The translations under genes and the position numbers were made by a program. From IMG/VR virus record IMGVR_UViG_3300025012_000310, positions 1-20,950 of that record: 20,950 nt of DNA. One strand, written 5' to 3'. Below, piece by piece: positions 1,804 to 17,338 of this stretch (position 1 is its first letter; each line of letters starts with the position of its first letter). Below the pieces are notes generated by a model. The model was not told the DNA's origin. It searched no databases and saw only the letters and a list, made by a program, of their open reading frames with translations. The stretch is from a virus.

Positions 1804-2289
1804 GTGAAGACATACATCGGAGTAAAGCAGGTGATGGCAGAAGAGGATGAGCGGGACGGGCAGCCGGGATACAAAGTAGTCTACCCCGACGGATATGAAT
1901 CATGGTCCCCGAAAGAAGTTTTTGACCGAGCCTACCTCGAAATGCCGGAGAATATGACATCCGAGCCGAACTACGAGATGATCAACAGTTTCATCTCCAT
2001 GGCTACTGTGGTTGATCGAGAAGACAATACCATCCTGGCCACCTTGATTCTGAGATCAGGATTTGAGCAGCAGGCGCTCGGCGGATACGATCCGATTGAC
2101 GGCATGACCGATGCCGAGAAAGCGGATTACATCCTTATTAAATCCAAGGAAATCATATGGGACTATCTTAAATTCGTCCACCAGTGGGCGGTTAAAGGAT
2201 TGAGTCCGGTCTATGGACAGTTGGAGCCGATGACCAAGAAAGATTTCGATCTCCTTCTCGCCCCTATGCCTGTCGGAAAACCGTCATGA
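1804..2289 (+). CDS. Phage protein with Gp49/Sf6 gp66-like N-terminus
   Basis: A 161-residue protein. Its N-terminus (KTYIGVKQVMAEE, then GYKVVYPDGY and SWSPKEVFDRAY) matches my memory of the small phage family named after N4 Gp49 and Sf6 gene 66, whose function is unknown. The part after residue 55 is extra for that family: it is largely helical, with an ILATLILRSGFEQQALGGYD segment, and may be a second domain. The GTG at 1804 is chosen because AAGGAG (1792-1797) is 6 bases upstream. An in-frame ATG at 1834 would cut the conserved start. Its end overlaps the MBL gene by ATGA, implying coupled translation. Confidence 0.75.
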   Translation: MKTYIGVKQVMAEEDERDGQPGYKVVYPDGYESWSPKEVFDRAYLEMPENMTSEPNYEMINSFISMATVVDREDNTILATLILRSGFEQQALGGYDPIDGMTDAEKADYILIKSKEIIWDYLKFVHQWAVKGLSPVYGQLEPMTKKDFDLLLAPMPVGKPS

Positions 2290-3026
2290 ATCTCACCATC
2301 ACTTCAATCGCCAGCTCGTCGGCCGGAAATTGCTATCTGCTCGATAACGGCAATTCCCGATTGATGATCGAATGCGGAATAACCTGGAAACGTATTCAGC
2401 AGGCTACAGGCTACACGACTTCGACCTTGGCCGGGTGTTTGGTCACCCACGGTCATTCTGATCATTCTAGGGCCGTAAAAGACGCCATCAAGAACGGTGT
2501 CGATGTCTACCTGAGTTTTGGCACATTGGGAGAATTGGAATTGGCAGATCCGAGCGAGGCAAATAAGCAGTTCAATCATCATCGTCTCCATATCATATCC
2601 ACCAGGCGGCAATTCTCCATCCAGGGAGACTGGAATGTCATGCCATTCGATGTGGTCCACGATGCAGAAGAACCGCTCGGCTTCCTGATTTCCACCGGAC
2701 CATACAAAATCCTCTTTCTTACCGATTTGTCGTATTGCCGGTACAAGTTTAAAGGGGTGACACACCTTATGGTCGAGGCGAATTTCTGTGAGAGAATCCT
2801 TGCCGAGAACATTCGATCAGGACTCGTGGATCCTGCCCGCCGGAAACGGCTTGTGGATAGCCACATGAGCATTCAACGGGTGGTGGATTTACTTCATAAG
2901 ATGGACGGTTCGTCTCTTCAGGAGATCCATCTTATCCACCTGTCAGAGCAAAACAGCGATGAGGTTTTATTTAAAAAACTTGTGGCAGGATATACTGGGA
3001 AACCGGTCTATGTCTGCCCGGCGTAA
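2286..3026 (+). CDS. MBL-fold metallohydrolase (YycJ-like)
   Basis: A 246-residue metallo-beta-lactamase-fold protein. It opens with SSSAGNCYLL and the metal-binding motif HGHSDH is at residues 55-60. Further likely metal ligands are H125-D126, D147 (LTDLSY) and H218 in the C-terminal HLSEQNSD. Order and length match the YycJ/WalJ group of hydrolases, which includes enzymes acting on nucleic acids. The start overlaps the previous stop (ATGA). Its place two genes after recT, where an exonuclease is usual, makes a nuclease role in recombination a reasonable guess, but the substrate is not shown by the sequence. Confidence 0.85.
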   Translation: MNLTITSIASSSAGNCYLLDNGNSRLMIECGITWKRIQQATGYTTSTLAGCLVTHGHSDHSRAVKDAIKNGVDVYLSFGTLGELELADPSEANKQFNHHRLHIISTRRQFSIQGDWNVMPFDVVHDAEEPLGFLISTGPYKILFLTDLSYCRYKFKGVTHLMVEANFCERILAENIRSGLVDPARRKRLVDSHMSIQRVVDLLHKMDGSSLQEIHLIHLSEQNSDEVLFKKLVAGYTGKPVYVCPA

Positions 3027-3073: not shown

Positions 3074-3790
3074 ATGAAAATGCAGCAGAAAATAAGAAAA
3101 GAAGTGATTGGGAATTGTACTTTGTATCTCGCAAATTGCCTAGATGTCTTGGCTGAGATTGGCTGCGGTACCGTCGACGCAGTTGTGTCTGATCCACCAT
3201 ATGGGATTAACTTTGATTGCTCTAAAAAACGTACCAGAAAAAGTGCGCTTTCAATGGGGGTAACTCCACTCGCAGATAGGCGATGGAGAAAAATTAATGG
3301 AGACAACAAGCCTTTCGACCCATCGCCATGGATCCGGTACCGGAAAGTCATTTTGTGGGGAGCGAATCATTACGCCGATAAACTTCCACCTTCATCGGTG
3401 CCAACCTGCTGGCTGGTGTGGGATAAAAAAATCGATACAACTCCAGACAACTTTAGTGATTGTGAACTGGCCTGGACAAACCTTCCGGGGGTGGTGAAAA
3501 AGTTCTCCCATCTTTGGCGGGGAATGGTGAGAGCTGGAAAAGAAAATATCTCCAAAGGACCAAAACTACACCCTTTTCAGAAACCAGAAGCCTTGATGGT
3601 GTGGTGCCTGGCGCTTTGTAAGCTGGATCTAGGGGCCGTTGTCCTGGATCCATATATGGGGAGCGGCACCACCGGAGTCGCCTGTATTAAAAACGGATTC
3701 AATTTTATCGGAATAGATAATGACGAAGAGCATTTTGAAGTAGCAGTGAAAAGGATCCAGATGGAAAGCAAACAAGTGCGGCTCTGTTAG
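3074..3790 (+). CDS. DNA amino-methyltransferase (N6-adenine or N4-cytosine)
   Basis: A 238-residue DNA methyltransferase with the two halves in the permuted (beta-class) order. The catalytic motif IV SDPPYG is at residues 39-44, and the S-adenosylmethionine-binding motif DPYMGSGTTG is near the end at 192-201, with HPFQKP at 166-171 before it. DPPY proteins methylate the exocyclic amino group of adenine or cytosine; which one cannot be read here. No restriction enzyme is nearby, so it is an orphan enzyme, probably protecting phage DNA or marking it. ATGs at 3074 and 3080 are both possible and neither has a good ribosome-binding site. Confidence 0.9.
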   Translation: MKMQQKIRKEVIGNCTLYLANCLDVLAEIGCGTVDAVVSDPPYGINFDCSKKRTRKSALSMGVTPLADRRWRKINGDNKPFDPSPWIRYRKVILWGANHYADKLPPSSVPTCWLVWDKKIDTTPDNFSDCELAWTNLPGVVKKFSHLWRGMVRAGKENISKGPKLHPFQKPEALMVWCLALCKLDLGAVVLDPYMGSGTTGVACIKNGFNFIGIDNDEEHFEVAVKRIQMESKQVRLC

Positions 3791-4134: not shown

Positions 4135-4173
4135 AATCTGTAGACATTGTGGTATGACATCGGGAAGAAAGAA

Positions 4174-4998
4174 ATGGGCACAGATATCAGAATTTCAGTC
4201 GAGTTTCTTGATCATCCAAAAACCATCAAACTTGAGAGGAAACTTGGGGTCGATGGCCTTAAAAGTCTGATTTCTCTTTGGTTGTGGAGCCGTGTGAACA
4301 GACCATGCGGGGATCTGCATGGAATGGATACAGAAGATATTGAAATAGCTGCAAAATGGAATGGTACCCCCGGCGAATTCGTTAACGCCACCTTAACGCT
4401 CCGTTGGCTGGACGTTAACGAGCCGTTAACGGAAAATTGCAAACCTTGTTATTCACTCCATGATTGGGCTGATCACAACTCATGGGCTGTTGGTACTGAG
4501 GCACGTAGCGATGCATCACGTTTCTCTCGAATGGCAAAAACCCATCCTGTTTTACATGAAAAGCTCAAAAACGAAGGACGAAAGTCTATATCTTTAGAAG
4601 AATTCAGAACACTTACGGAAGGTAACGGAACCTTAACGATTCGTAAACGGAACGTTAACGCGCCGTTAACCCCTTCTCCTTCTCCTTCTCCTTCTCCTTC
4701 TCCTGTTCCTTCTCCAATAGATAGGGGTAAAAAATTTACCCCCCCGACACTCGACCAAGTAAGGGTTTATTGCCAAGAGAGGAAGAACGGAATCGATCCT
4801 GAAAAGTTCATAGCCCACTATGAAACAACGGGCTGGATGTACGGAAAAACCAAGATGAAGAATTGGAAGTCGGCGATCATCACTTGGGAGAAAAACCAGA
4901 GATATAGGGGAGGCAACCGTCAGCCTAAAACCTTCTCTGAAATCAAAGACCAGAAAATGCGGCAAGCGATAAACGATTTCGTGGAGGGTGCAGAATGA
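4174..4998 (+). CDS. Phage replication initiator (lambda O / DnaD-like role)
   Basis: A 274-residue protein of the phage replication-initiation type. The N-terminal part (residues 1-115) resembles the winged-helix region of such proteins: IRISVEFLDHPKTIKLERKLG, then DIEIAAKWNGTPGEFV and YSLHDWADHNSWAVGTEAR. A PS-rich linker follows (about residues 167-182). The C-terminal region DPEKFIAHYETTGWMYGKTK and MKNWKSAIITWEKN is typical of phage initiators that recruit a helicase loader. The ATG at 4174 is preferred over a TTG at 4147 because the family core starts there, though its ribosome-binding site is weak. The gene contains repeats and a dyad that look like the origin itself. It overlaps the next gene by ATGA. 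Confidence 0.85.
   Translation: MGTDIRISVEFLDHPKTIKLERKLGVDGLKSLISLWLWSRVNRPCGDLHGMDTEDIEIAAKWNGTPGEFVNATLTLRWLDVNEPLTENCKPCYSLHDWADHNSWAVGTEARSDASRFSRMAKTHPVLHEKLKNEGRKSISLEEFRTLTEGNGTLTIRKRNVNAPLTPSPSPSPSPSPVPSPIDRGKKFTPPTLDQVRVYCQERKNGIDPEKFIAHYETTGWMYGKTKMKNWKSAIITWEKNQRYRGGNRQPKTFSEIKDQKMRQAINDFVEGAE
4380..4431 (+). repeat. Iteron cluster 1 (CGTTAACG), candidate initiator-binding sites
   Basis: Perfect 8-base palindromes CGTTAACG lie at 4380-4387, 4413-4420 and 4424-4431. A degenerate copy CTTAACG is at 4392-4398 and a half copy CGTT at 4402-4405. Centre spacings are about 10-12 bases, so the sites face the same side of the helix. The cluster is within the coding sequence of the initiator, and uses the TTA leucine codon twice. 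I see few TTAACG elsewhere in the window. Confidence 0.65.
4612..4670 (+). repeat. Iteron cluster 2, candidate core of replication origin
   Basis: Six related motifs follow each other: CTTACGG (4612-4618), GTAACGG (4622-4628), CTTAACG (4632-4638), CGTAAACG (4642-4649), CGTTAACG (4653-4660) and CGTTAAC (4664-4670). Centres are 10-11 bases apart, matching one helical turn. Positions 4631-4670 match 4391-4430 of cluster 1 at 32 of 40 bases by my count, exactly 240 bases apart. Arrays of this kind bind initiator proteins in lambda-like and plasmid origins. The binding protein would be the product of the host gene itself, by analogy. Confidence 0.65.
4672..4713 (+). repeat. CCTTCT hexamer tandem tract
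   Basis: Five exact CCTTCT units (4672-4701), one variant CCTGTT and one more CCTTCT. It is nearly all pyrimidine on this strand. Each unit encodes Pro-Ser, so gain or loss of units keeps the frame and only changes the linker length. It lies directly between the second iteron cluster and the dyad, where lambda has a strand-biased purine/pyrimidine stretch. Confidence 0.85.
4724..4742 (+). repeat. Perfect dyad in the candidate origin
   Basis: GGGGTAAA (4724-4731) and TTTACCCC (4735-4742) are exact reverse complements with a 3-base spacer, making a 19-base near-palindrome with an AT-rich centre. It comes 54 bases after the last iteron. A similar inverted repeat follows the iterons and the asymmetric tract in the lambda origin. 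It is inside the initiator coding sequence. Confidence 0.65.
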
Positions 4999-5630
4999 AA
5001 GGGAAGAATGACAGGATGGCCTTTTCAACGGTTATGTATCCTTTCGGAAAACTCTATGACCTTTCCCTGGAAGACAGCAAAATGTTTGGCCTTTGGTGGG
5101 ATGCCTTAAAGGAATACGACATCGAGGAGGTGGTCAAGGCTGCTCAAAAATTCATCAAGAGCCCTGATTTCGGCAATTATAAGCCGAAACCGGCAGATAT
5201 CATCAAGATGATTGAAGGAACATCCAGCGACAGGAGTTTGCTGGCCTGGTCGAAAGTCGAAAAAGCTATTCGGCGCGTGGGCTCATATCAAACCGTGTCC
5301 TTTGATGATCCGATTATCCATCGAGTGATAGAGGATATGGGCGGGTGGGTTGCAATGTGTGGATCCCAGGAGAACGAGATTCCATTTGTCTCCAAGGAAT
5401 TTTGCACCAGGTATCGAGGTTTCTCAGTGATGCAGGAGATTCCCCAGCACCCGACAAGGTTGTTTGGGATAATCGACTGCGACAATTCGGCTAATGGCTA
5501 TCGCGAGCTTTCCCGGCCGGTGTTCATCGGTGACCAGCAAAAGGCCGCCAAGGTTCTGGAAGGATGTCTGCAGCCAAAGGATGGCCTTCTATTGATCGAA
5601 GGAGAAAACAGTGAGCCAGGAAAAAGATAA
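4995..5630 (+). CDS. Putative replication partner protein (DUF6475-like)
   Basis: A 211-residue protein translated from an ATGA overlap with the initiator. Motifs such as MFGLWWDALKEYDIEEV, YKPKPADIIKMIEG, AWSKVEKAIRRVG and DDPIIHRVIEDMGGWVAMC match my recollection of the phage family DUF6475. The pattern of an N-terminal helical region with a KPADI step and an AWxKV helix is shared with phage proteins next to replication initiators. By position it is the equivalent of lambda P, the helicase loader, but I see no ATP-binding motif, so loader function is inference. Residues after 165 are variable and probably not part of the core. Confidence 0.78.
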   Translation: MKGKNDRMAFSTVMYPFGKLYDLSLEDSKMFGLWWDALKEYDIEEVVKAAQKFIKSPDFGNYKPKPADIIKMIEGTSSDRSLLAWSKVEKAIRRVGSYQTVSFDDPIIHRVIEDMGGWVAMCGSQENEIPFVSKEFCTRYRGFSVMQEIPQHPTRLFGIIDCDNSANGYRELSRPVFIGDQQKAAKVLEGCLQPKDGLLLIEGENSEPGKR

Positions 5631-6018: not shown

Positions 6019-7746
6019 ATGACAAGGGGTGTTCCCAGGTTACAACCTGGATTGTGGGATGAACTGATTGTTGATAATTTTGCCGGTGGCGGCGGGGCTA
6101 GCTTGGGTATCGAGTGGGGGCTCGGCCGGGGAGTAGATATCGCCATCAACCATGACCGCGAGGCGGTTGAGATGCACAAAGCCAACCACCCATGGACCAA
6201 GCATTACACCGAGGATGTTTGGGATGTCGATCCGGTGAAAGTCTGTAAGGGTAGGTCCGTTGGCTTGGCGTGGTTCAGCCCTGATTGCAAACATTTTTCT
6301 AAGGCAAAAGGAGGGCAGCCGGTATCTAGGAAAATTCGTGGTCTCGCGTGGGTGGCGGTAAAGTGGGGGAAAAAGAAAAGTCCCAGGGTGATCATGCTGG
6401 AAAACGTGGAAGAGTTCCAGGACTGGGGCCCGCTGATTCACGTTTGCGATAGCGACGGCAAACCAAAATTCGACAGCGAGGGGCGGCCGGTAATGATGCC
6501 GTGCGGAGTGAATAAGGGAAAAACCTTCTATCTGTGGGTCCATCGCCTCGAACAGCTTGGTTATAAGGTTGATTGGAGAGAACTCCGGGCTTGCGACTAT
6601 GGCGCCCCTACCATTCGCAAACGGCTTTTCCTTATCGCTCGCCGGGATGGTTTACCGATTGTCTGGCCTGACCCGACCCACGGCGATCCGAAGAGCGAGG
6701 AAGTGAAGAGCGGTAAACTGCAGCCATGGAAAACGGCCGCTGATTGCATTGATTGGTCCATCCCTTGTCATTCAATTTTTCTCACCAAGGAAGAGGCCCG
6801 GGCGGTTGGCGTCAAGCGGCCGCTGGCGGATGCTACAATGCGGCGAATTGCCAAGGGGGTGATGAGGTATGTTATTGAGAGTCTGGAGCCGTTTGTCGTT
6901 ACCTACTACGGCGACAAGGGTGGAGAGTTTCGTGGGCAGTCGCTCGGCGAACCGCTGGCTACTCAGACTACGGCAAACCGCCATTCCCTGGTTGTTCCGG
7001 TTTTTACCGAGCATGCGAACGCTTCTTCGCCGCGATGTATGCCAGCGGATGAGCCGCTGCGGACTATCTGCGCGAACGTCAAAGGCGGGCACCATGCCCT
7101 TGTCTCGGCTTTTCTCGCAAAGCACTATACCGGGGTTGTCGGCTCAGATGTGCGAGAGCCAATTGGTACAGTGACAGCGGTAGATCATCATAGCCTGGTT
7201 ACCGCTCACATCAGACGAGATTTTGGCCAATCAATCGGGCACGCAGCGGATGTTCCTCTTGGCACGGTGACAGCGGATGGAATGGGAAAATCTGCGATCG
7301 TAACTTCTCACCTGGTCAAACTGCGAGGCACCTGCAGGGACGGCCAGCCGGTTACGGCGCCGATGCCGACGATCACCGCTTCCGGCACTCATATTGGGGA
7401 GGTCCGTGCCTTCCTGTTGAAATACTTTGGTAATGAGCATAATGGTCACGCGCTCCAAGAACCTCTTGGGACCGTCACCACAAGAGATCGGTTTGGTCTG
7501 GTGACCGTCCGTGGCGAGATTTACCACATAGCCGATATTTGTCTCCGGATGTTCTCGCCCAGGGAACTATTCAGGGCTCAAGGATTCCCTGACGAGTATG
7601 TCATCGACATAAAGATTGATGGGAAGCGGATTACCAAAGAGGCGCAGGTCAGCATGTGTGGGAATTCTGTGTCGCCATACGTGCCGGCGGCGCTGGTGCG
7701 GGCGAATATGAAGATCAGATCAGGCGCATTGTTGGAGGTGGCGTGA
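6019..7746 (+). CDS. DNA (cytosine-5) methyltransferase with repeat-rich target region
   Basis: A 575-residue C5-cytosine methyltransferase. Motif I (FAGGGGASLG) is at 21-30. The catalytic cysteine is C90 in SPDCKHFS, where most family members have PPC. Motif VI ENV is at 128-130, motif VIII (CDYGAPTIRKR) at 192-202, RELFRAQGFPDE at 515-526 and GNSVSPYVPAAL at 548-559. The target-recognition region (about 291-498) is made of six repeated units of roughly 32-36 residues, each built around an EPLGTVT-like core followed by a HHSLVTA-like stretch. AAGGAG precedes ATG 6019 by 6 bases. No partner nuclease is present, so it is an orphan enzyme, probably protecting phage DNA from host restriction. 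Confidence 0.93.
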   Translation: MTRGVPRLQPGLWDELIVDNFAGGGGASLGIEWGLGRGVDIAINHDREAVEMHKANHPWTKHYTEDVWDVDPVKVCKGRSVGLAWFSPDCKHFSKAKGGQPVSRKIRGLAWVAVKWGKKKSPRVIMLENVEEFQDWGPLIHVCDSDGKPKFDSEGRPVMMPCGVNKGKTFYLWVHRLEQLGYKVDWRELRACDYGAPTIRKRLFLIARRDGLPIVWPDPTHGDPKSEEVKSGKLQPWKTAADCIDWSIPCHSIFLTKEEARAVGVKRPLADATMRRIAKGVMRYVIESLEPFVVTYYGDKGGEFRGQSLGEPLATQTTANRHSLVVPVFTEHANASSPRCMPADEPLRTICANVKGGHHALVSAFLAKHYTGVVGSDVREPIGTVTAVDHHSLVTAHIRRDFGQSIGHAADVPLGTVTADGMGKSAIVTSHLVKLRGTCRDGQPVTAPMPTITASGTHIGEVRAFLLKYFGNEHNGHALQEPLGTVTTRDRFGLVTVRGEIYHIADICLRMFSPRELFRAQGFPDEYVIDIKIDGKRITKEAQVSMCGNSVSPYVPAALVRANMKIRSGALLEVA

Positions 7747-9989: not shown

Positions 9990-10898
9990 ATGGGCGATTT
10001 CGATTCGGACAGGAAAGGAACAGGTACCGCAGAATGGGCAGAGGTAAACGAAAACATCTGCCGTGGGTGCCAGAATATGTGCCTGTACTGCTATGCAGCA
10101 TACAACGCCAATCGATTCGGGCAGAGAGACCGGGAGAATTGGGGGCGAGAGGAACTCACCAAGCGGGCTGAGATCCAGGCCTACCCGGCGAAAAATGGCG
10201 TCATCATGTTTCCCAGCTCGCACGATATCACGCCGTTCAACCTGGACGCTTACATTCGAGTAGCGAAATTGATACTCGAAAAGGGCAATAAACTGCTGAT
10301 CGTCAGCAAGCCGCGCCTGGAGTGCGTGGAAAAGATGATTTTGGAATTCGAGCTGTACCGGAAACAGATTCTTTTCCGCTTCACGATGGGAACCGTGCAG
10401 GAAAGCGTTTCGTTATTATGGGAACCAGGTGCGCCTTTACCGAGAGAGCGTCGGGAGTGCCTGGCTCTTGCCTACGGCAGAGGGTTTGATACTTCGGTTT
10501 CTATCGAGCCGATGCTCGAAGGTTTTCAGATGACAGAGATCCTGGTTGAATGGGTCAGGCCGTTTGTTTCGAAAACCATATGGATCGGTAAAATGAACAA
10601 ACCTCAATTGAGAGTGCCGAAAACTCACGCTTACCTGGTCGACGCCATTCTGAAAATGCAAAGTGATGACCAGATTATGAACCTGTACGAGTGGTTCAAA
10701 GATGACGGGATAATCAGGTGGAAAGACAGCATTAAAACAGTGGTGGAGTTGCATAAATCAAGAGTCGATCATCATTACGGCAATCGGTGTTCTTGTGGTA
10801 AGCCTCTTCCGAAAATCAACGCCAGTATTGAGGCGAAACTCGACATGGGTGCCAGTTGCCCGCATGCAGAAATTCCAGTGGAGAAGGGAAAATGGTAA
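9990..10898 (+). CDS. Radical SAM protein, phage type
   Basis: A 302-residue protein with the iron-sulphur cluster motif C-x3-C-x2-C (GCQNMCLYCYA, cysteines 27, 31 and 34) that binds S-adenosylmethionine in radical SAM enzymes. Later conserved blocks are MFPSSHDITPFNLDA, KLLIVSKPRLECV, ILFRFTMGTVQE, FWEPGAP-like LLWEPGAP and VSIEPMLEG, then WIGKMNK. These are seen together in a group of phage and bacterial radical SAM proteins without a well-known reaction. A C-terminal cysteine pair (CSCGKPL) may bind another cluster or zinc. The start ATG at 9990 has GAGGGTTGAG before it. Substrate unknown; DNA, RNA or nucleotide modification are all possible. Confidence 0.87.
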   Translation: MGDFDSDRKGTGTAEWAEVNENICRGCQNMCLYCYAAYNANRFGQRDRENWGREELTKRAEIQAYPAKNGVIMFPSSHDITPFNLDAYIRVAKLILEKGNKLLIVSKPRLECVEKMILEFELYRKQILFRFTMGTVQESVSLLWEPGAPLPRERRECLALAYGRGFDTSVSIEPMLEGFQMTEILVEWVRPFVSKTIWIGKMNKPQLRVPKTHAYLVDAILKMQSDDQIMNLYEWFKDDGIIRWKDSIKTVVELHKSRVDHHYGNRCSCGKPLPKINASIEAKLDMGASCPHAEIPVEKGKW

Positions 10899-11804: not shown

Positions 11805-12314
11805 TCAGCCTTTCACAATCCCCAAGGCCCGGGCATAATGAAGAGCGGTTTCAATCCACGGTTTTCCAAGATCGGTGGTAAGTTCCACCTGTACCAGACA
11901 GGTTCTGTGGACCCACTTACCGATTGAATGGATTGGCCAGAACCATTCTTTTTCTTCAATGTATTTCCCGCAGATCGGGCAAACCACGAGACCGACCACA
12001 TGTTGGTAAGGCATTTTCTCCGCAGCACCACGATTTACCACCTCGTTGAGTATGGTGTTGAGTAGGTCTTTCGACACCTCGACGTCGTTCGGGTCAACCA
12101 TAATAACCCCCTTTGGCTTCTGGCTTTGAGGAGGTGTCCATCCGAGCGTGATAAGCGCCAGCCTGATCTGCTCTTCCTGGACATCAAAAATTCTTCGGTG
12201 CAAGAGCTCACGGAATCCCCCTATTCCCATCGAAATGTCCTGTTGGATAAACCTGTCGTTAAAGATCGATGTGTCTATCTGGTATGCCTCTGCGCTTCCT
12301 ATTTTCTTGCTCAT
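11805..12314 (-). CDS. Hypothetical protein with CxxC...HxxC zinc motif
   Basis: A 169-residue protein, last gene of the minus-strand operon. Near residues 112-139 it carries CPICGKYI and, after an aromatic run, VHRTC, so likely a treble-clef or ribbon zinc site. The N-terminal part is helical with MGIGGFRELLHRRIF and EEQIRLALITLGWTPP. No family is recognised. CGGAG lies about 8 bases before the ATG at 12312-12314. The preceding 73-base gap holds a perfect 10-base dyad. Confidence 0.68.
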   Translation of the reverse strand: MSKKIGSAEAYQIDTSIFNDRFIQQDISMGIGGFRELLHRRIFDVQEEQIRLALITLGWTPPQSQKPKGVIMVDPNDVEVSKDLLNTILNEVVNRGAAEKMPYQHVVGLVVCPICGKYIEEKEWFWPIHSIGKWVHRTCLVQVELTTDLGKPWIETALHYARALGIVKG

Positions 12315-12340
12315 GTCAATTCTCCGTTTGGTGATGGGTG

Positions 12341-12369
12341 AGATATATTCAAGACCGTCGAATATATCT
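12341..12369 (-). promoter_or_regulatory. Perfect 10-base inverted repeat before a minus-strand gene
   Basis: AGATATATTC (12341-12350) and GAATATATCT (12360-12369) are exact reverse complements around 9 bases. The sequence is AT-rich, unlike the genes around it, and is in the gap between a 27-residue reading frame and the gene starting at 12314. It could be an operator, a hairpin in the mRNA, or part of a promoter for that gene. Confidence 0.5.
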
Positions 12370-12387
12370 ATTATTCAATACAAGTAC

Positions 12388-12471
12388 TTACATGCTTTTC
12401 ATGATTGCGGCCGCGACCGATACGCCCAATATCGCGCCTGGTGATGAAACGCTTATCGTCAGCATAATCAT
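12388..12471 (-). CDS. Possible 27-residue membrane peptide
   Basis: A reading frame of 27 residues that starts at an ATG overlapping the previous stop as ATGA (12468-12471), as many genes here do, with GAGGAAG in the coding end of the upstream gene about 7 bases before. Sixteen or so residues in the middle (GAILGVSVAAAIM region) are hydrophobic, as in a single membrane-spanning peptide. It ends at TAA 12388-12390. Too short to judge by composition, so this is tentative. Confidence 0.35.
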   Translation of the reverse strand: MIMLTISVSSPGAILGVSVAAAIMKSM

Positions 12472-12674
12472 GGTTTTGCTTCCTCGATAAAATGGATGTT
12501 GGCCATCCGCAGAATTGCCGGAGTGTCCAGCCCTTTCGCATGGGCGAGGTGGAGGAGGTTCGTCATCGTGTCCACGATATCGGCCTCAAGGTCGTCTGGG
12601 TCTCGATGATATAGAGCGTTGAGGGCATGTTCCGCCTGTTCGATCCTGCCGAAGTTCCTATTTTTCTCTGGCAT
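12468..12674 (-). CDS. Hypothetical small helical protein
   Basis: A 68-residue protein. It is charged and helical, with RIEQAEHALNALYHR, an acidic DPDDLEADIVDTM and a second helix LLHLAHAKGLDTPAILRMA. AGAGGAA precedes ATG 12672-12674. It overlaps the end of the previous gene by 17 bases. The two-helix layout may be a small dimer. No family is recognised. Confidence 0.65.
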   Translation of the reverse strand: MPEKNRNFGRIEQAEHALNALYHRDPDDLEADIVDTMTNLLHLAHAKGLDTPAILRMANIHFIEEAKP

Positions 12675-13065
12675 TGGATTCCTCTTTTTCGACAAAATGT
12701 TCAAAAACGAACCGCTCATGTGCGTCGGTCCAGGTGAAACCGGCGTCCTCAATCGCTTCCTGCGCGTAGGTGAGCCTGCCCGCGCCAATGCAATCCGCAT
12801 TGAAAATGGCGTCGGTGATGACGGCCAGTTCTTCGGCTGAGAGTTTTTTCTGTTTCCTGTTGAAATCTCTGATGGTCATGTCTGGATCCCCGGATTTGAT
12901 CATCTTGATGACATTGATGACGGTGATTTTCTTATCGATCGCTCCCTCTGTTCTCTCCAACAGCGCGGCCGCTCGGTGTGGCGAAATACCTTTCTCTATC
13001 AGGTCCATCAGTCTCGTGTAATTGGCAACCGACCAAGGTTTGCCGTGTTTCTTCGGTTTCTCCAC
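12658..13065 (-). CDS. Putative DNA-binding protein with HTH-like segment
   Basis: A 135-residue protein starting at GTG 13063-13065, with AAGGAG exactly 6 bases before. Residues about 8-43 (KPWSVANYTRLMDLIEKG then SPHRAAALLERTEGAIDKKI) read like a Myb/HTH-type fold of phage regulators: an aromatic-rich helix, then a turn and a recognition-like helix. The C-terminal half is alternating helices (EELAVITDAIFNADC, AQEAIEDAGFTW). It may regulate the operon or host genes; nothing fixes this. A longer frame to 13122 would overlap the previous gene more. Confidence 0.65.
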   Translation of the reverse strand: MEKPKKHGKPWSVANYTRLMDLIEKGISPHRAAALLERTEGAIDKKITVINVIKMIKSGDPDMTIRDFNRKQKKLSAEELAVITDAIFNADCIGAGRLTYAQEAIEDAGFTWTDAHERFVFEHFVEKEESNAREK

Positions 13066-13076
13066 CTCTCTCTCCT

Positions 13077-13295
13077 TCAAATCATGTTCAGTTTTTTGCC
13101 GATAGCCCAGCAGGTGGGGCACCAGCCGATAAACACCGGGATATCATTGCCGTGTTTCGCTTCCATGTCAGCCTGCTCTTTCGCCATCCTGGCGAGTTTC
13201 TCGTCGAAATCCTCAACTCGGTTGATTCCGACCGATGTAAGGTGGCTCTGTTCCCACTTCGACAGGAGCCGCTTTGCTTTTTTCGTCTTCAGCAT
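13077..13295 (-). CDS. Hypothetical small protein with CxxC
   Basis: A 72-residue protein: a basic start (MLKTKKAKRLLSKW), an acidic helical middle (DFDEKLARMAKEQADMEAK), and a CPTC near residue 60 followed by a basic tail. It may need a partner cysteine pair, since only one pair is present. ATG 13293-13295 has GGAGG 8 bases before it; the ATG at 13310 lacks a binding site and overlaps the upstream gene. No family recognised. Confidence 0.62.
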   Translation of the reverse strand: MLKTKKAKRLLSKWEQSHLTSVGINRVEDFDEKLARMAKEQADMEAKHGNDIPVFIGWCPTCWAIGKKLNMI

Positions 13296-13297
13296 TG

Positions 13298-13543
13298 CTA
13301 TGACCTCCATTGGTATTCCGGATAGTGGCCCTCAAGGACAAGGATAACCTCGATATCCTCGTGGTCGTGATCAATGATATCGTCCTGGTTCCATTCGTTT
13401 ACCTTGATCATCTCATCTTTCGCCGCCTCGATACCATCAATGGCTGTAGGTGCCTCGCTCAAGGTGTAAAATGTCTCCAGTCCTGAGTAGTCCGGGTACA
13501 GCAGCATAATGCTCCATTTTTTGTTTTCACCCTCTCTTTCCAT
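13298..13543 (-). CDS. Phage protein of PDY...EGH type
   Basis: An 81-residue protein with WSIMLLYPDYSGLETFYTLS at the start and IEVILVLEGHYPEYQW at the end. The same layout appears in the C-terminal half of the 171-residue protein at 14786-15301 (VILIVPEYAADNYG and VAMVCEGH), so the two share a domain. I recognise this only as a recurrent phage protein of unknown role. AAAAGGAG precedes ATG 13541-13543. The gap upstream of it (13544-13622) holds the duplicated hairpin element. Confidence 0.72.
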   Translation of the reverse strand: MEREGENKKWSIMLLYPDYSGLETFYTLSEAPTAIDGIEAAKDEMIKVNEWNQDDIIDHDHEDIEVILVLEGHYPEYQWRS

Positions 13544-13562
13544 GCTTTTCTCCTTTTATTTG

Positions 13563-13627
13563 GTGTTGAGGTTTAACCGCTCGACTGCCGCCGGGGACAG
13601 CGCCCCCGGTTTGGTCCAAAGGTTAAT
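13563..13627 (-). repeat. Duplicated hairpin element, copy A
   Basis: Shares GTGTTGAG, GTTTRACCGCTCGACTGC and TGGTCCAA with the copy at 16420-16489, in the same order, around a GC-rich hairpin. Here the stem is CCGGGG (13591-13596) with CCCCGG (13604-13609). It begins at the stop of the minus-strand gene 13623-13835 and ends near the ribosome-binding site of the next, so it fills a whole gap in the operon. No T-run follows in either direction. I do not know a family for it. The 'strand' is the transcription direction. Confidence 0.7.
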
Positions 13628-13835
13628 CGTTCTGAGTTGTACAGCAGTCCTTATGCAGGTTTGATTCTATTCCAACATTTTCCTCATGCGGTTCGATATA
13701 ATTCCCGCATGCGTCACAAACTACATTTCCGGCCGACGAATTAAGCTCATAAAGTACCTCACTTACGGTCATCTTAACCCCATCCTTAAGGATGCATGCT
13801 CCATCAGCCATAATCCCTTCAGTGTATATAGGCAT
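13623..13835 (-). CDS. Hypothetical small protein with zinc-finger-like end
   Basis: A 70-residue protein. The C-terminal third has CDACGNYIEPHEE and then HKDCC, consistent with a small zinc finger (C, C, H, C). The first part is plain with DGVKMTVSEVLYELNSSAG. AAGGTGAG is 5 bases before ATG 13833-13835; a GTG at 13844 would be an alternative start. The end of the reading frame overlaps the hairpin element. No family is recognised. Confidence 0.66.
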   Translation of the reverse strand: MPIYTEGIMADGACILKDGVKMTVSEVLYELNSSAGNVVCDACGNYIEPHEENVGIESNLHKDCCTTQND

Positions 13836-13854
13836 AATACTCACCTTATGTTTA

Positions 13855-14277
13855 TTAAACGAATCGCTTCAGGATGTAGATTGCTGCTTCCAGAGCATTA
13901 TCACTTGATGTCCTGGGAAGATCGTTCCGCGTAAGTCGGCTGTGAAGGTCTTCAATTTCCTTGATCATCGCAGGTGAAACTTTGGTTAGTGTTCTTTCAT
14001 CGATGACACATTTGGTATCCGCGGGGGGAAAACATGTCTGGTGATATTTGGGAGGCTCAGGTAGAGGTGGCTCAAGAAAGCGGATGTAGAAGGCCGGTAC
14101 CAATTCAACCTGACCATCCGGCCATTCGACGATAGCAGCCGTGTAATTACCAGGCCCGCCATCAAACTCCTCGTGGTCCACTCCGAAGTGATGGAAAAGC
14201 GCCTCGCCTTTTTCCTGCTTCACGTTTCTTTTTGCTTCTGCAGACCACACCATGTGGCTGACCATTACCTTTCTCAT
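13855..14277 (-). CDS. Recurrent phage protein (ALFHxxG...GPGN type)
   Basis: A 140-residue protein. Residues about 24-68 (GEALFHHFGVDHEEFDGGPG then NYTAAIVEWPDGQVELVP) match a motif recurrent in tailed-phage proteins of unknown function. The C-terminal part is a helical extension (SPAMIKEIEDLHSRLTRNDL, ALEAAIYILKRFV) that could oligomerise. AAAGGAG precedes ATG 14275-14277 well. Its role cannot be told. It is in the operon's middle, after gene 14305-14784. Confidence 0.72.
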   Translation of the reverse strand: MRKVMVSHMVWSAEAKRNVKQEKGEALFHHFGVDHEEFDGGPGNYTAAIVEWPDGQVELVPAFYIRFLEPPLPEPPKYHQTCFPPADTKCVIDERTLTKVSPAMIKEIEDLHSRLTRNDLPRTSSDNALEAAIYILKRFV

Positions 14278-14304
14278 GCTGTTCTCCTTTTGTTGTTTAT
14301 GGGT

Positions 14305-14784
14305 TTAAGCGTCGAGGGAATCCTCGTTTATTTCGACAATCTTGTCGCAGCGGCCGCACTTGTAGAGCAGCCTATCGGTGACGGAAATGTCCATCTCTGA
14401 GAGGTACTCGCCCTGCTCATCGACCTGGAAGAAACCCTCGTCGTGTTTGGTATTGCCGCAATTGCAGCGGTACGTTTCGCACTCGCTTTGTTTCAGGATC
14501 TGGCAAACCGGTTCGGCCGGAGGCTCGACTTCCATCGACCAGCCCCATGTGATCTCAGGAAGGCCACACAGGACCGCCACGAGTTCGTAGTCGCCTTGGT
14601 CGCAGGGAAGTCTGCCCTCGCACTCGTCGATTTTGTAGGCCTTGATGATGGCCAGTTCGCCCGCCTGTTTCGCCGTGTCGGCCATGACCTGGAGGCCGTG
14701 GTACGGCTCAGGGTAATCGTCGATGATGTATGACGGTTTCCGGACGATGGCGGTCCAGGCTATTTTTTCGGTGTCTTCTTTCAT
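14305..14784 (-). CDS. Hypothetical protein with four-cysteine ribbon
   Basis: A 159-residue protein. It has two Cys pairs, CNCGNTKHDE (about 107-116) and CGRCDK (about 142-147), forming a likely zinc ribbon. The first part carries CEGRLPCDQGDYELVAVLCGL. The charged C-terminal IVEINEDSL ends the frame. The ATG at 14782-14784 has TGGAG before it; the longer upstream frame lies inside the next gene. No function suggested. Confidence 0.68.
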   Translation of the reverse strand: MKEDTEKIAWTAIVRKPSYIIDDYPEPYHGLQVMADTAKQAGELAIIKAYKIDECEGRLPCDQGDYELVAVLCGLPEITWGWSMEVEPPAEPVCQILKQSECETYRCNCGNTKHDEGFFQVDEQGEYLSEMDISVTDRLLYKCGRCDKIVEINEDSLDA

Positions 14785-14785
14785 T

Positions 14786-15301
14786 TTATTCTCCACGGAA
14801 GATGTCTTGAATGTGGCCCTCACAGACCATGGCGACCTTGTAGTCGTTGAAGCAGTCCGGGTTAAAATCCTCTCCATCCGGGTCAACCTCGTGTGATTTC
14901 CATGCGTTCTTTCGAGCCAATCGCACCGCATCGTCAATATCTAAAGCCTCGACATGATCAAGCCATGTATCCTGGCCGTAGTTGTCCGCGGCATATTCCG
15001 GAACGATCAAGATGACCGTGTAGGGCTTGGGCGTAAGTGGAACGAATGGCTTCAGGAGCGCGATTGCCGCTGAGATGGTGTCGGCCTCTTGAAAATACTC
15101 AGCGTCAAGACGATCAGCCAGTATCCTATCCAGGTTATCGATGAGACTTTGCTCGACAACTGGCAGTGTGCCAATGGCTTCTTCGATTGCGAGTTGCACT
15201 TGTTTTTGCGCGATCGGGAAAGCTCCCTGTGGGTCATGAAAAATATTGCCCATTTCACAAATGGTTTTTACCGCAAGTGCCTCGATCTGTTTCTTGTTCA
15301 T
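14786..15301 (-). CDS. Phage protein with PEY...EGH C-terminal domain
   Basis: A 171-residue protein. The N-terminal half is helical (KKQIEALAVKTICEMGNIF, and AQKQVQLAIEEAIGTLPVVE). The C-terminal half from about residue 92 carries TVILIVPEYAADNYGQDT, a conserved acidic helix, and YKVAMVCEGH, like the 81-residue protein at 13298-13543. The two may be related by duplication. AAGGAG is 9 bases before ATG 15299-15301. It overlaps the gene upstream by ATGA. Confidence 0.7.
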   Translation of the reverse strand: MNKKQIEALAVKTICEMGNIFHDPQGAFPIAQKQVQLAIEEAIGTLPVVEQSLIDNLDRILADRLDAEYFQEADTISAAIALLKPFVPLTPKPYTVILIVPEYAADNYGQDTWLDHVEALDIDDAVRLARKNAWKSHEVDPDGEDFNPDCFNDYKVAMVCEGHIQDIFRGE

Positions 15302-15570
15302 CTCTTTTTTCTCCTTGACCATGGGTGCATGACTTTTTTGTCCCGGTATGGCAGTGATGGCTCAGTTGCGTCCGTGGCAGGGATTTTGAATTCCAGATCG
15401 ATTTGTTCCAGTTCAGACATAACGAATCTGTCGTGGGTTTCTTGGTAGAAATCAATGTCATCGACAAATATCAGTTCAACGCCGGTTCCTGCGGCTATTT
15501 CTTTAAGCGACTCTCGGTGGAATGCGTCGTCACAGCCGGCCACCAGTATTATCATTTCTTCAGTTTTCAT
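15298..15570 (-). CDS. Hypothetical small phage protein
   Basis: A 90-residue protein. The start MKTEEMIILVAGCDDAFHRE looks like a Rossmann-type strand-loop, followed by LKEIAAGTGVELIFVDDIDF. It is acidic in the middle and basic at the end (PWSRRKKR). ATG 15568-15570 has only a weak AGAGG-like site upstream. ATGA overlap with the next gene suggests coupling. It resembles no family I can name. Confidence 0.65.
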   Translation of the reverse strand: MKTEEMIILVAGCDDAFHRESLKEIAAGTGVELIFVDDIDFYQETHDRFVMSELEQIDLEFKIPATDATEPSLPYRDKKVMHPWSRRKKR

Positions 15571-15793
15571 CTGGATTTTCCCTCTCCGCTTCCTTGATGT
15601 TTTCAATGAGTCGATGAGTGAGCCCTGCCTTCTCGATCATGAGAAGTGCATGCAGGTGCCTCTTCATCTGTTTGGTTTCCTTTCTGGCGACTCTCTCAAA
15701 ATCGCTCACGCGGCACCTGGACGTGCCCAGGAGCGTGGCCATGGAGGATTGAGAGACGCCGAGCAGGGCACGGACGGCTTTTACTGTTGGCAT
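15560..15793 (-). CDS. Small helix-turn-helix protein (XRE/Aca-like size)
   Basis: A 77-residue protein. Residues 3-38 (TVKAVRALLGVSQSSMATLLG then TSRCRVSDFERVARK) form a helix-turn-helix of the XRE type, where SQSSMATLLG and the CRVSDFE recognition helix are typical. The C-terminal KRHLHALLMIEKAG helix may pair two copies. GGAGG is 4 bases before ATG 15791-15793. In the middle of an operon of small unknown genes, such a regulator is reminiscent of anti-CRISPR-associated (Aca) repressors, but this is only an analogy. Confidence 0.75.
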   Translation of the reverse strand: MPTVKAVRALLGVSQSSMATLLGTSRCRVSDFERVARKETKQMKRHLHALLMIEKAGLTHRLIENIKEAERENPDEN

Positions 15794-15999
15794 GTATCCT
15801 CCTTCCGCTTCCAAGCTCTAACCACAACCTCTTTACCATCTCGATCTTCCACCTCCAACAAGGTCCATCCTTCGTCATAGGCGATTTCAAGCATGTCATC
15901 CCACTGGCCGGGAGAGCATGTGATAAACAGGCCTCCAGGTTTTGTTATATCTGGGATTGGTGTTGAATCGAGTTCCGGCCTCTTTTCCGTGTTGGTCAT
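15781..15999 (-). CDS. Hypothetical small protein
   Basis: A 72-residue protein. A disordered start (TNTEKRPELDSTPIPD) leads into GGLFITCSPGQWDDMLEIAYDEGW, then LLEVEDRDGKEVVVRAW, an alternating strand-helix-strand pattern. AAGGAG is 9 bases before ATG 15997-15999. It overlaps the HTH gene start by 13 bases. No family is recognised. Confidence 0.65.
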   Translation of the reverse strand: MTNTEKRPELDSTPIPDITKPGGLFITCSPGQWDDMLEIAYDEGWTLLEVEDRDGKEVVVRAWKRKEDTCQQ

Positions 16000-16012
16000 T
16001 TTGGTGCACTCC

Positions 16013-16282
16013 TTATCTGATGATTTTTCCATACCCCAACTCGGAGTAATCGAATTCCAGCCGCTCGCGCTGCCCTTTCCCGCACAGACCGGTTATGTCG
16101 CAGGTTCCGGAAAACAACCTGATTACGGCCGCAGTTGGCACATCGGCGGGGATGTTGTTGATCTGCCGGATCTGCACCGATGCATCCCGGACATCACCCA
16201 GGGGTGCGAGAGGTGATGCGAGAGTGGTATTCACGTGCATACCGTTGCAGGTGGTTTTGATTTTGATGCTTCTGGTTCCCAT
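16013..16282 (-). CDS. Hypothetical small protein with basic and beta-rich regions
   Basis: An 89-residue protein. Residues 1-20 are basic (RSIKIKTTCNGMHVNTTL), the middle reads like beta strands (VRDASVQIRQINNIPADVP, AVIRLFSGTCDITGLCGKGQ) and the end EFDYSELGYGKIIR is aromatic. Three cysteines (C12, C60 and C67) are not paired as a zinc finger. AAGGAG precedes ATG 16280-16282. Not recognised. Confidence 0.66.
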   Translation of the reverse strand: MGTRSIKIKTTCNGMHVNTTLASPLAPLGDVRDASVQIRQINNIPADVPTAAVIRLFSGTCDITGLCGKGQRERLEFDYSELGYGKIIR

Positions 16283-16292
16283 ACTGTTCTCC

Positions 16293-16406
16293 TTACATTT
16301 TTTCTATAATTCCGACTGCCATATAGATGGCAATCAGCATCCACGGCGCGACCATGCGCCATTTCTCAAGGTTCCGCTGCCCCCTCGTGACCTTTCTGTT
16401 TCTCAT
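16293..16406 (-). CDS. Possible 37-residue membrane protein
   Basis: A 37-residue protein with a basic start (MRNRKVTRGQRNLEKWR) and a hydrophobic end (MVAPWMLIAIYMAVGIIEKM), as in a small single-pass membrane protein. A longer in-frame ORF starts earlier at 16481 but runs through the hairpin element, so I prefer the later ATG at 16404-16406. CGGAG is about 10 bases before. Very short, so moderate confidence. Confidence 0.5.
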   Translation of the reverse strand: MRNRKVTRGQRNLEKWRMVAPWMLIAIYMAVGIIEKM

Positions 16407-16419
16407 GCTCCATATCTCC

Positions 16420-16489
16420 GTGTTGAGATTGATGTTTGACCGCTCGACTGCGGGCGGGGCGCAAGCCCCGCCGTGGTCCAATGATCAAT
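16420..16489 (-). repeat. Duplicated hairpin element, copy B
   Basis: Same layout as the copy at 13563-13627: GTGTTGAG (16420-16427), GTTTGACCGCTCGACTGC (16434-16451) and TGGTCCAA (16474-16481). The central stem is GGCGGGGC (16453-16460) with GCCCCGCC (16465-16472) around a 4-base loop, GCAA on the plus strand. It fills the gap between the stop of gene 16493-17338 and the start of gene 16293-16406. Stems of the two copies differ but both pair perfectly. Confidence 0.72.
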
Positions 16490-16492
16490 GCA

Positions 16493-17338
16493 TTAAAACT
16501 CAACGTTTTCGAGGCGTTTATAAAGGTTATCTGAGTTCAGATAACCAATTACCTCTGTCATATATTGCCCCCCAAGCATTTTCTTTTTAAATTTTCCGAG
16601 ACCCATTTTCCCCCGGCCAATTCGCTCAAATTCAGCAGGAGCTATGGTGTTCCTTATTATCGCCTGAACTAATGAGTTTTGCAGGAGATCATCCCATGAT
16701 AGGCTGCGAATATAGGCCACTCTGTCGGCAATTTCCCCGGCGCGAACCATTCTCTCTCTGTGCTCCACAAGGGCCAGCTCGTATTGTTCATCCAAAAAAA
16801 TTTTACGCTCATCAGCCTCCTGTAACTCACGTTGTTTTCGCTCGGACTCCTCCTGCTCAACCTGTTCCCTGTGTTTCTCAGCTGCGTCATATTTACCGTT
16901 ATTATATTCTGTTTTCAGCCAATCCGAGTCGATACCGGTTAACAGGTCAACCGGGAAATCATCTCCAGCCCATCCAGCATTATATGCACGGTACTCCCTG
17001 GCGCGCTGTTTCTCGTATTGTTTACTGATCTCTAATTCCCGCTCTCGGTCATCCTGTTGTTGTTTGAGAAAATTAACTGATGGTTGGCCTATTGGTTCTA
17101 CGTCGATCTCGATACGATAGGTTACGGAGCTATTTCCCGGCTGAGAGTTGCGTTTTGTCGGTTTCAGCGCCTCAAAAACCTGGCCATATCCAGGAACACC
17201 ACTGTCGGGAAACCAAAAACACCGTTTGCCAAATAATTTTTCAACCGCTCGTCCTATTGCCTCGCTCTCATTTTCTACGTGTACGCATGTGGATTTGTCG
17301 CCGATTACTACCTGGAATTTCCGTGTGTAACGTGCCAT
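16493..17338 (-). CDS. Hypothetical charged protein, first in the minus-strand operon
   Basis: A 281-residue protein. The first 50 residues look like a beta-rich domain (RKFQVVIGDKSTCVHVENES). The middle (about residues 90-200) is very rich in Glu, Arg and Lys and likely a long helix or coiled coil (EKHREQVEQEESERKQ). The C-terminal 80 residues carry AYIRSLSWDDLLQN and AEFERIGRGKMGLGKFKKK. AGGAGGTG is 5 bases before ATG 17336-17338, an excellent site, and the promoter is upstream. No family is recognised; it is the longest and first minus-strand gene, often the site of an operon's main function. Confidence 0.75.
   Translation of the reverse strand: MARYTRKFQVVIGDKSTCVHVENESEAIGRAVEKLFGKRCFWFPDSGVPGYGQVFEALKPTKRNSQPGNSSVTYRIEIDVEPIGQPSVNFLKQQQDDRERELEISKQYEKQRAREYRAYNAGWAGDDFPVDLLTGIDSDWLKTEYNNGKYDAAEKHREQVEQEESERKQRELQEADERKIFLDEQYELALVEHRERMVRAGEIADRVAYIRSLSWDDLLQNSLVQAIIRNTIAPAEFERIGRGKMGLGKFKKKMLGGQYMTEVIGYLNSDNLYKRLENVEF

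Follow-up and report, generated by a model that had tools for sequence, protein, structure and literature searches.

The initiator gene of a 20,950-bp phage fragment from IMG/VR (the window, i.e., the whole stretch of DNA analysed here) very probably contains its own replication origin, in which intragenic iterons would be bound by the gene's own product and the helicase would be recruited through a loader. The earlier note had read two groups of repeats, a tract and a dyad as the phage origin, and this reading is supported, as the arrays and the tract are selected at the DNA level in relatives and lie inside a gene of an initiation family. What was observed directly are the DNA features, the selection on them, a constraint imposed by the reading frame and the recurrence of the arrangement in initiator genes. 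The arrays, tract and dyad all fall within the coding sequence, as had been claimed:

4174..4998, plus strand: initiator gene, whose ATG lines up with the MNTDIR start in homologs; a TTG at 4147 is a possible alternative start
4380..4431, plus strand: upstream iteron array, five 11-bp units starting at 4380, 4391, 4402 (degenerate), 4413 and 4424
4620..4671, plus strand: main iteron array, five 11-bp units starting at 4620, 4631, 4642 (stop-frame variant CGTAAACG), 4653 and 4664, ending at the tract
4672..4713, plus strand: strand-asymmetric hexamer tract (CCTTCT)n, coding for (PS)n and composed of five CCTTCT, one CCTGTT and one CCTTCT
4724..4742, no strand assigned: perfect dyad GGGGTAAA-N3-TTTACCCC, directly 3' of the tract, an optional hairpin
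4995..5630, plus strand: downstream gene with DUF6475 and a helicase-loader-like N-terminus, overlapping the end of the initiator gene by four bases

The N-terminal domain of the initiator matches phrog_9474 (replication initiation protein, E=1e-13), a family also matched by 23 of 28 relatives, and its C-terminus matches phrog_15768. The AlphaFold2 model (mean pLDDT 85) predicts a winged-helix-like domain (aa 1-106), well-predicted helices (aa 108-149), a disordered linker (about aa 152-190) and a C-terminal domain (about aa 193-245); a fold search against the PDB returned nothing below E=0.001, the top hit being DnaD at E=0.08. The product of the downstream gene matches PF20081 (E=4e-32) and the helicase loader family phrog_2289 (E=4e-7), with a weak, below-cutoff match to G39P (PF11417, E=0.0017) and a weak one to 1NO1 (E=0.67). 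Judged by these matches, it is probably a helicase loader.

Both arrays belong to a 48-bp direct repeat whose copies are 79% identical and 240 bp apart. Allowing up to one mismatch, CGTTAACG occurs 10 times in the window versus 4.3 expected, a count reached in none of 100 shuffles, and eight of the 10 copies fall in the reported region. The earlier note had placed two motif groups at 4380-4431 and 4612-4670, with centres about 10-12 bases apart; the two arrays stand, with a spacing of exactly 11 bp, but the second starts at 4620 and not at 4612. The array at 4620-4671 encodes the start of the disordered linker, and the one at 4380-4431 encodes the wing region. Part of the latter is an insertion of about seven amino acids that is absent in most homologs, which gives the impression that the protein grew to make room for a second array. 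A counterpart of this upstream array is present in the relatives L003 and L052 and partial in L067. Neither a naive k-mer cluster test nor a codon shuffle of the motif count within the gene had enough power, since the iteron codons of the gene itself contribute to the null. A scan for the exact motif CGTTAACG-N3-CGTTAACG was set aside, as most of its 14 matches were chance-like, yet it pointed to L047, L052, L055 and L057.

Since 11 is not a multiple of three, successive units rotate through the reading frames, and TTAACG contains a TAA stop in one of these frames while being harmless in the other two. In each array the stop-frame unit is the third one, and this is the unit that is altered (CGTTGGCT in the first array, CGTAAACG in the second). 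Considering the window together with the four relatives that have such chains, TTAACG is read by none of 10 stop-frame units versus 16 of 25 units in the other frames. The same holds more widely: with the base before AACG at codon position 1, T is found in 0 of 63 units from 43 other sense-coded AACGA arrays, versus 34 of 79 units in arrays outside sense ORFs. The frame shift with every unit also means that no peptide repeat with an 11-bp period can arise, and from the sequence the period is best read as a DNA signal fitted into the coding frame, not as a peptide repeat. In one relative, a non-coding stretch (L146 685-790) that stops 16 bp short of the initiator start carries ten NAACG units at 11-bp spacing, and a second array is present inside the gene. 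This upstream array is free of the stop-frame limit and is a candidate autoregulation site.

Conservation of the motifs at synonymous sites in related phages had been named beforehand as a refutation test, and close relatives do keep the unit cores at such sites. In L003, whose initiator is 85% identical, most cores are kept, more weakly in the array at 4380-4431, and all 15 codons of 4672-4716 are identical, with synonymous changes being common in the rest of the gene. Wider homolog searches gave 91 initiator genes, 79 of them non-redundant, and periodicity and codon statistics were computed on 70. Across these 70 homologs, the lag-11 autocorrelation in the 88 bp before the tract is 0.371 versus 0.303 in synonymous-codon shuffles (z=13.2), and the signal persists at lag 22 (z=11.4) and lag 33 (z=6.6). 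Elsewhere in these homologs, a control region lacks the 11-bp autocorrelation. The homologous arrays finish directly at the tract.

The layout is constant across lineages while the core motif varies, being NAACGA-like in the relatives of the window, GCA(N)TGC in a second, sizeable group and of other types in a few. An R[FL]xRM-type segment following the winged helix pairs with the NAACGA class (21 of 24 such genes, none with GCA(N)TGC), and an ARW-type segment pairs with the GCA(N)TGC class; the class assignment relied on simple patterns, and the tree is based on few columns. A natural swap was found in one clade, where L068/L072 and L076/L080 share 72-79% of the winged-helix domain (79% for L068 versus L076). 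The segment after it is shared to only about 21%, and the iterons are different as well. The swap is consistent with a model in which segment and iterons form a cassette, and does not identify the residues that would read the DNA.

The CCTTCT tract is found exactly as the earlier note had described it, and its codon usage points to the DNA. Within the tracts of the 70 genes, serine is encoded by TCT in 288 of 293 cases versus 177 of 1,364 (13%) elsewhere, so selection acts on the DNA itself. For alanine, GCT accounts for 37 of 45 tract codons versus 519 of 2,642 elsewhere. In total, the third base is T in 394 of 490 tract codons versus 108 expected, and this preference is common to Ser, Ala, Thr and Asn. 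At 23 loci, the first 20 tract positions are about 86% pyrimidine on the coding strand and 40-43% AT, and AT content reaches only 53-57% after 20-60 bp. Duplex stability is slightly lower at +20 to +60. The tract is a candidate entry or unwinding element but, not being AT-rich, no classical unwinding element.

The dyad at 4724-4742 is likewise present and perfect, as had been reported. Perfect dyads with short loops and arms of 7 bp or longer are seen just after the tract at 14 of 71 loci versus 2.3 expected, an excess that disappears by +100. An energy-based hairpin test after the tract gave a weak signal, and in L003 the dyad is broken by synonymous changes; the dyad is for these reasons treated as optional.

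The arrangement is not restricted to the relatives of the window. Four in-phase AACGA units at 11-bp spacing were found in at least 120 viral contigs (about 0.1 expected by chance, a rough figure taken from 4^-20 and an assumed tens of gigabases, which tandem repeats raise), and four in-phase AGCAA units likewise in at least 120. Both sets of matches are mostly in sense orientation inside initiator genes and are followed by tandem tracts. Of 63 non-redundant AACGA loci, 41 fall within an ORF of 150 aa or more in sense orientation (38 of these at aa 70-200) and one is antisense, whereas the cleaner of two controls, with this core at 10-bp spacing, gave 61 matches whose 55 non-redundant loci comprise nine sense, three antisense and 43 without an ORF, and even some of these control matches look like initiators. 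Many of the ORFs with 11-bp AACGA arrays match DnaD-like loader or replication-initiation PHROG families. AGCAA, a permuted core picked as a neutral control, shows the same pattern, with initiator and primosomal families. Since it behaves like AACGA, it counts as a second iteron core and is unusable as background. Period 6 dominates the tandem tracts after AGCAA arrays (z=11.4), and periods are mixed after AACGA arrays. In unrelated families, no single peptide signature was found upstream of AACGA versus AGCAA arrays. The earlier note had described the iteron as a sequence unlike known origin repeats; it is no one-off, as NAACGA units are present in the initiator genes of many phages. Cultured comparators agree with the pattern: besides Tuc2009 rep, described below, a Microcystis phage has CCGTTCA repeats and a GCCAGA tract, and the Faecalibacterium phage Lagaffe has a 5-bp tract, then GGGGGATACCCCC.

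Two groups of these contigs deserve separate mention. In L196, L214, L216, L228, L234, L243 and L245, in-phase AACGA arrays, often with TAACGA, have no notable overlapping ORF, and these are possible intergenic origins or operators. In L369, L376, L393, L411, L417, L419 and others in A6, initiator-like proteins have (NV)n, (NH)n or (KD)n directly after AGCAA arrays, and such dipeptide repeats may be by-products of the 6-bp DNA tract.

By analogy with lambda O, SPP1 gp38/gp39/gp40 and pSK41 Rep, we infer how binding, opening and loading could proceed. The winged helix of the initiator and the helices following it would bind the phased 11-bp iterons on one face of the helix, with the array at 4620-4671, beside the tract, as the core and the one at 4380-4431 as an auxiliary site. 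Oligomerisation of the initiator would then open the DNA beside the array, over or just past the hexamer tract and in the weaker DNA beyond, and the C-terminal domain, together with the loader encoded at 4995-5630, would recruit the host replicative helicase. GC skew, which had been suggested as a check, gives a mixed picture: it shows no turn in the window, and of four longer contigs two have their minimum no more than about 2 kb away from the gene. This mixed skew, the AT content of the tract and the loss of the dyad in L003 speak against the origin reading. In the window, many of the longer ORFs at 11805-17338 are on the minus strand and GC skew there drops to zero or negative, so skew-based origin finding is confounded.

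Alternatively, the arrays could be operators through which the initiator, or else a phage repressor, regulates how the replication genes are transcribed, with the origin being elsewhere. Two placements favour this: the ten-unit array of L146 ends just ahead of the initiator start, where a promoter could be, and the array at 4380-4431 stands apart from the tract. However, the conserved array sits far inside the coding sequence, stops precisely where a selected tandem tract begins and occupies the same position in unrelated initiator families, and we consider this explanation unlikely, an operator role being possible especially for the array at 4380-4431 and the one upstream of the L146 gene. 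A centromere-like site, with a segregation protein binding the repeats, would have a similar appearance, since partition sites too typically contain arrays of short repeats in helical phase; it is very improbable here, as the arrays adjoin the tract inside replication-initiator-like genes and no partition gene was recognised among the scanned window proteins. It is scarcely credible, finally, that the region lacks a DNA function and is a low-complexity linker at the protein level, homogenised by repeat slippage: it does encode a disordered linker, and tandem repeats do slip, but a frame shift per unit leaves no peptide repeat of 11-bp period, synonymous-shuffle nulls are widely exceeded, stop-frame units are altered and not lost, and the third-base T of the tract holds for four amino acids alike.

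An intragenic origin would thus remain the preferred reading, and several known systems resemble it. The earlier note called it lambda-like, which is apt for the layout and the presumed mechanism but not for homology, given the lack of a lambda-O Pfam match, the 11-bp instead of longer units and the lack of a lambda-type AT-rich element. Lambda iterons are longer than 11 bp, and the lambda origin has four of them and an AT-rich tract, whereas the window has two arrays of 11-bp units and a hexamer pyrimidine tract. No lambda O-family Pfam match was found in 28 relatives, O-like PHROGs are matched by few relatives and not by the window protein, and no AT-rich unwinding stretch was found beside the iterons. 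What is shared is an iteron array inside the initiator gene: in lambda, the origin is in the middle of gene O, and the initiator binds direct repeats that are followed by an unwinding stretch (PMC7466680). SPP1 has direct repeats within its initiator gene gp38 (oriL), with the loader gp39 among the partners (PMC6316719), and the window similarly has direct repeats in its initiator gene; the probable loader gene directly downstream has the weak, below-cutoff G39P match. SPP1 differs in its AT-rich unwinding elements and two distant origins, and the likeness drawn here is one of layout.

In the plasmid pSK41, the N-terminal domain of Rep binds four Rep boxes located centrally in rep, the central region encoded by the origin is a linker, and the natural chimera pPR9 has had its N-terminal domain and its origin replaced jointly (PMC5703833). 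The array at 4620-4671 and the tract are also central and encode the disordered linker (aa 152-190) between domains, the role as boxes being assigned here by analogy, and the chimera resembles the swap between L068/L072 and L076/L080. The available text describes no hexamer tract for pSK41, and the RepA_N Pfam has no match in the window protein or its relatives. The record for rep of the lactococcal phage Tuc2009 states 'contains origin of replication', and the gene has CAACCAAATG repeats, then a GATAG-type tract, but repeat sequence and spacing differ and its tract is purine-rich with a 5-bp period. The family phrog_9474 is a protein family only, without a described origin. We do not claim membership in the lambda, SPP1 or RepA_N families. 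No description of the layout was found in full-text searches, which covered few subscription papers and not the original lactococcal phage ones.

With some reserve, we lean towards a general grammar of origins that unrelated families of phage initiators have in common, in which 11-bp units with few cores (NAACGA, AGCAA/GCANTGC) end at a short tandem tract, (PS)n, (NV)n and (KD)n are by-products of the DNA tract, and binding specificity is swapped as one cassette with the adjacent coding segment. Intragenic iteron origins are so far known from a handful of model replicons. If true, the origins of many uncultured phages would be recognisable by a single layout, the dipeptide-repeat linkers of phage initiators would be explained, and the swap would show in nature how a specificity segment changes hands along with the sites it binds. 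Since the layout recurs in many unrelated phage initiator genes, it could help to locate origins in phages that have not been cultured, and to test them.

Among other genes of the window, 2286-3026 encodes a metallo-hydrolase (phrog_392) that weakly matches the anti-Pycsar protein Apyc1 (E=3.7e-4, below cutoff), and 9990-10898 has a weak, below-cutoff radical SAM match (E=0.0013). The replication genes are flanked by an N6/N4 DNA methylase (3074-3790) and a C5 cytosine methylase (6019-7746).
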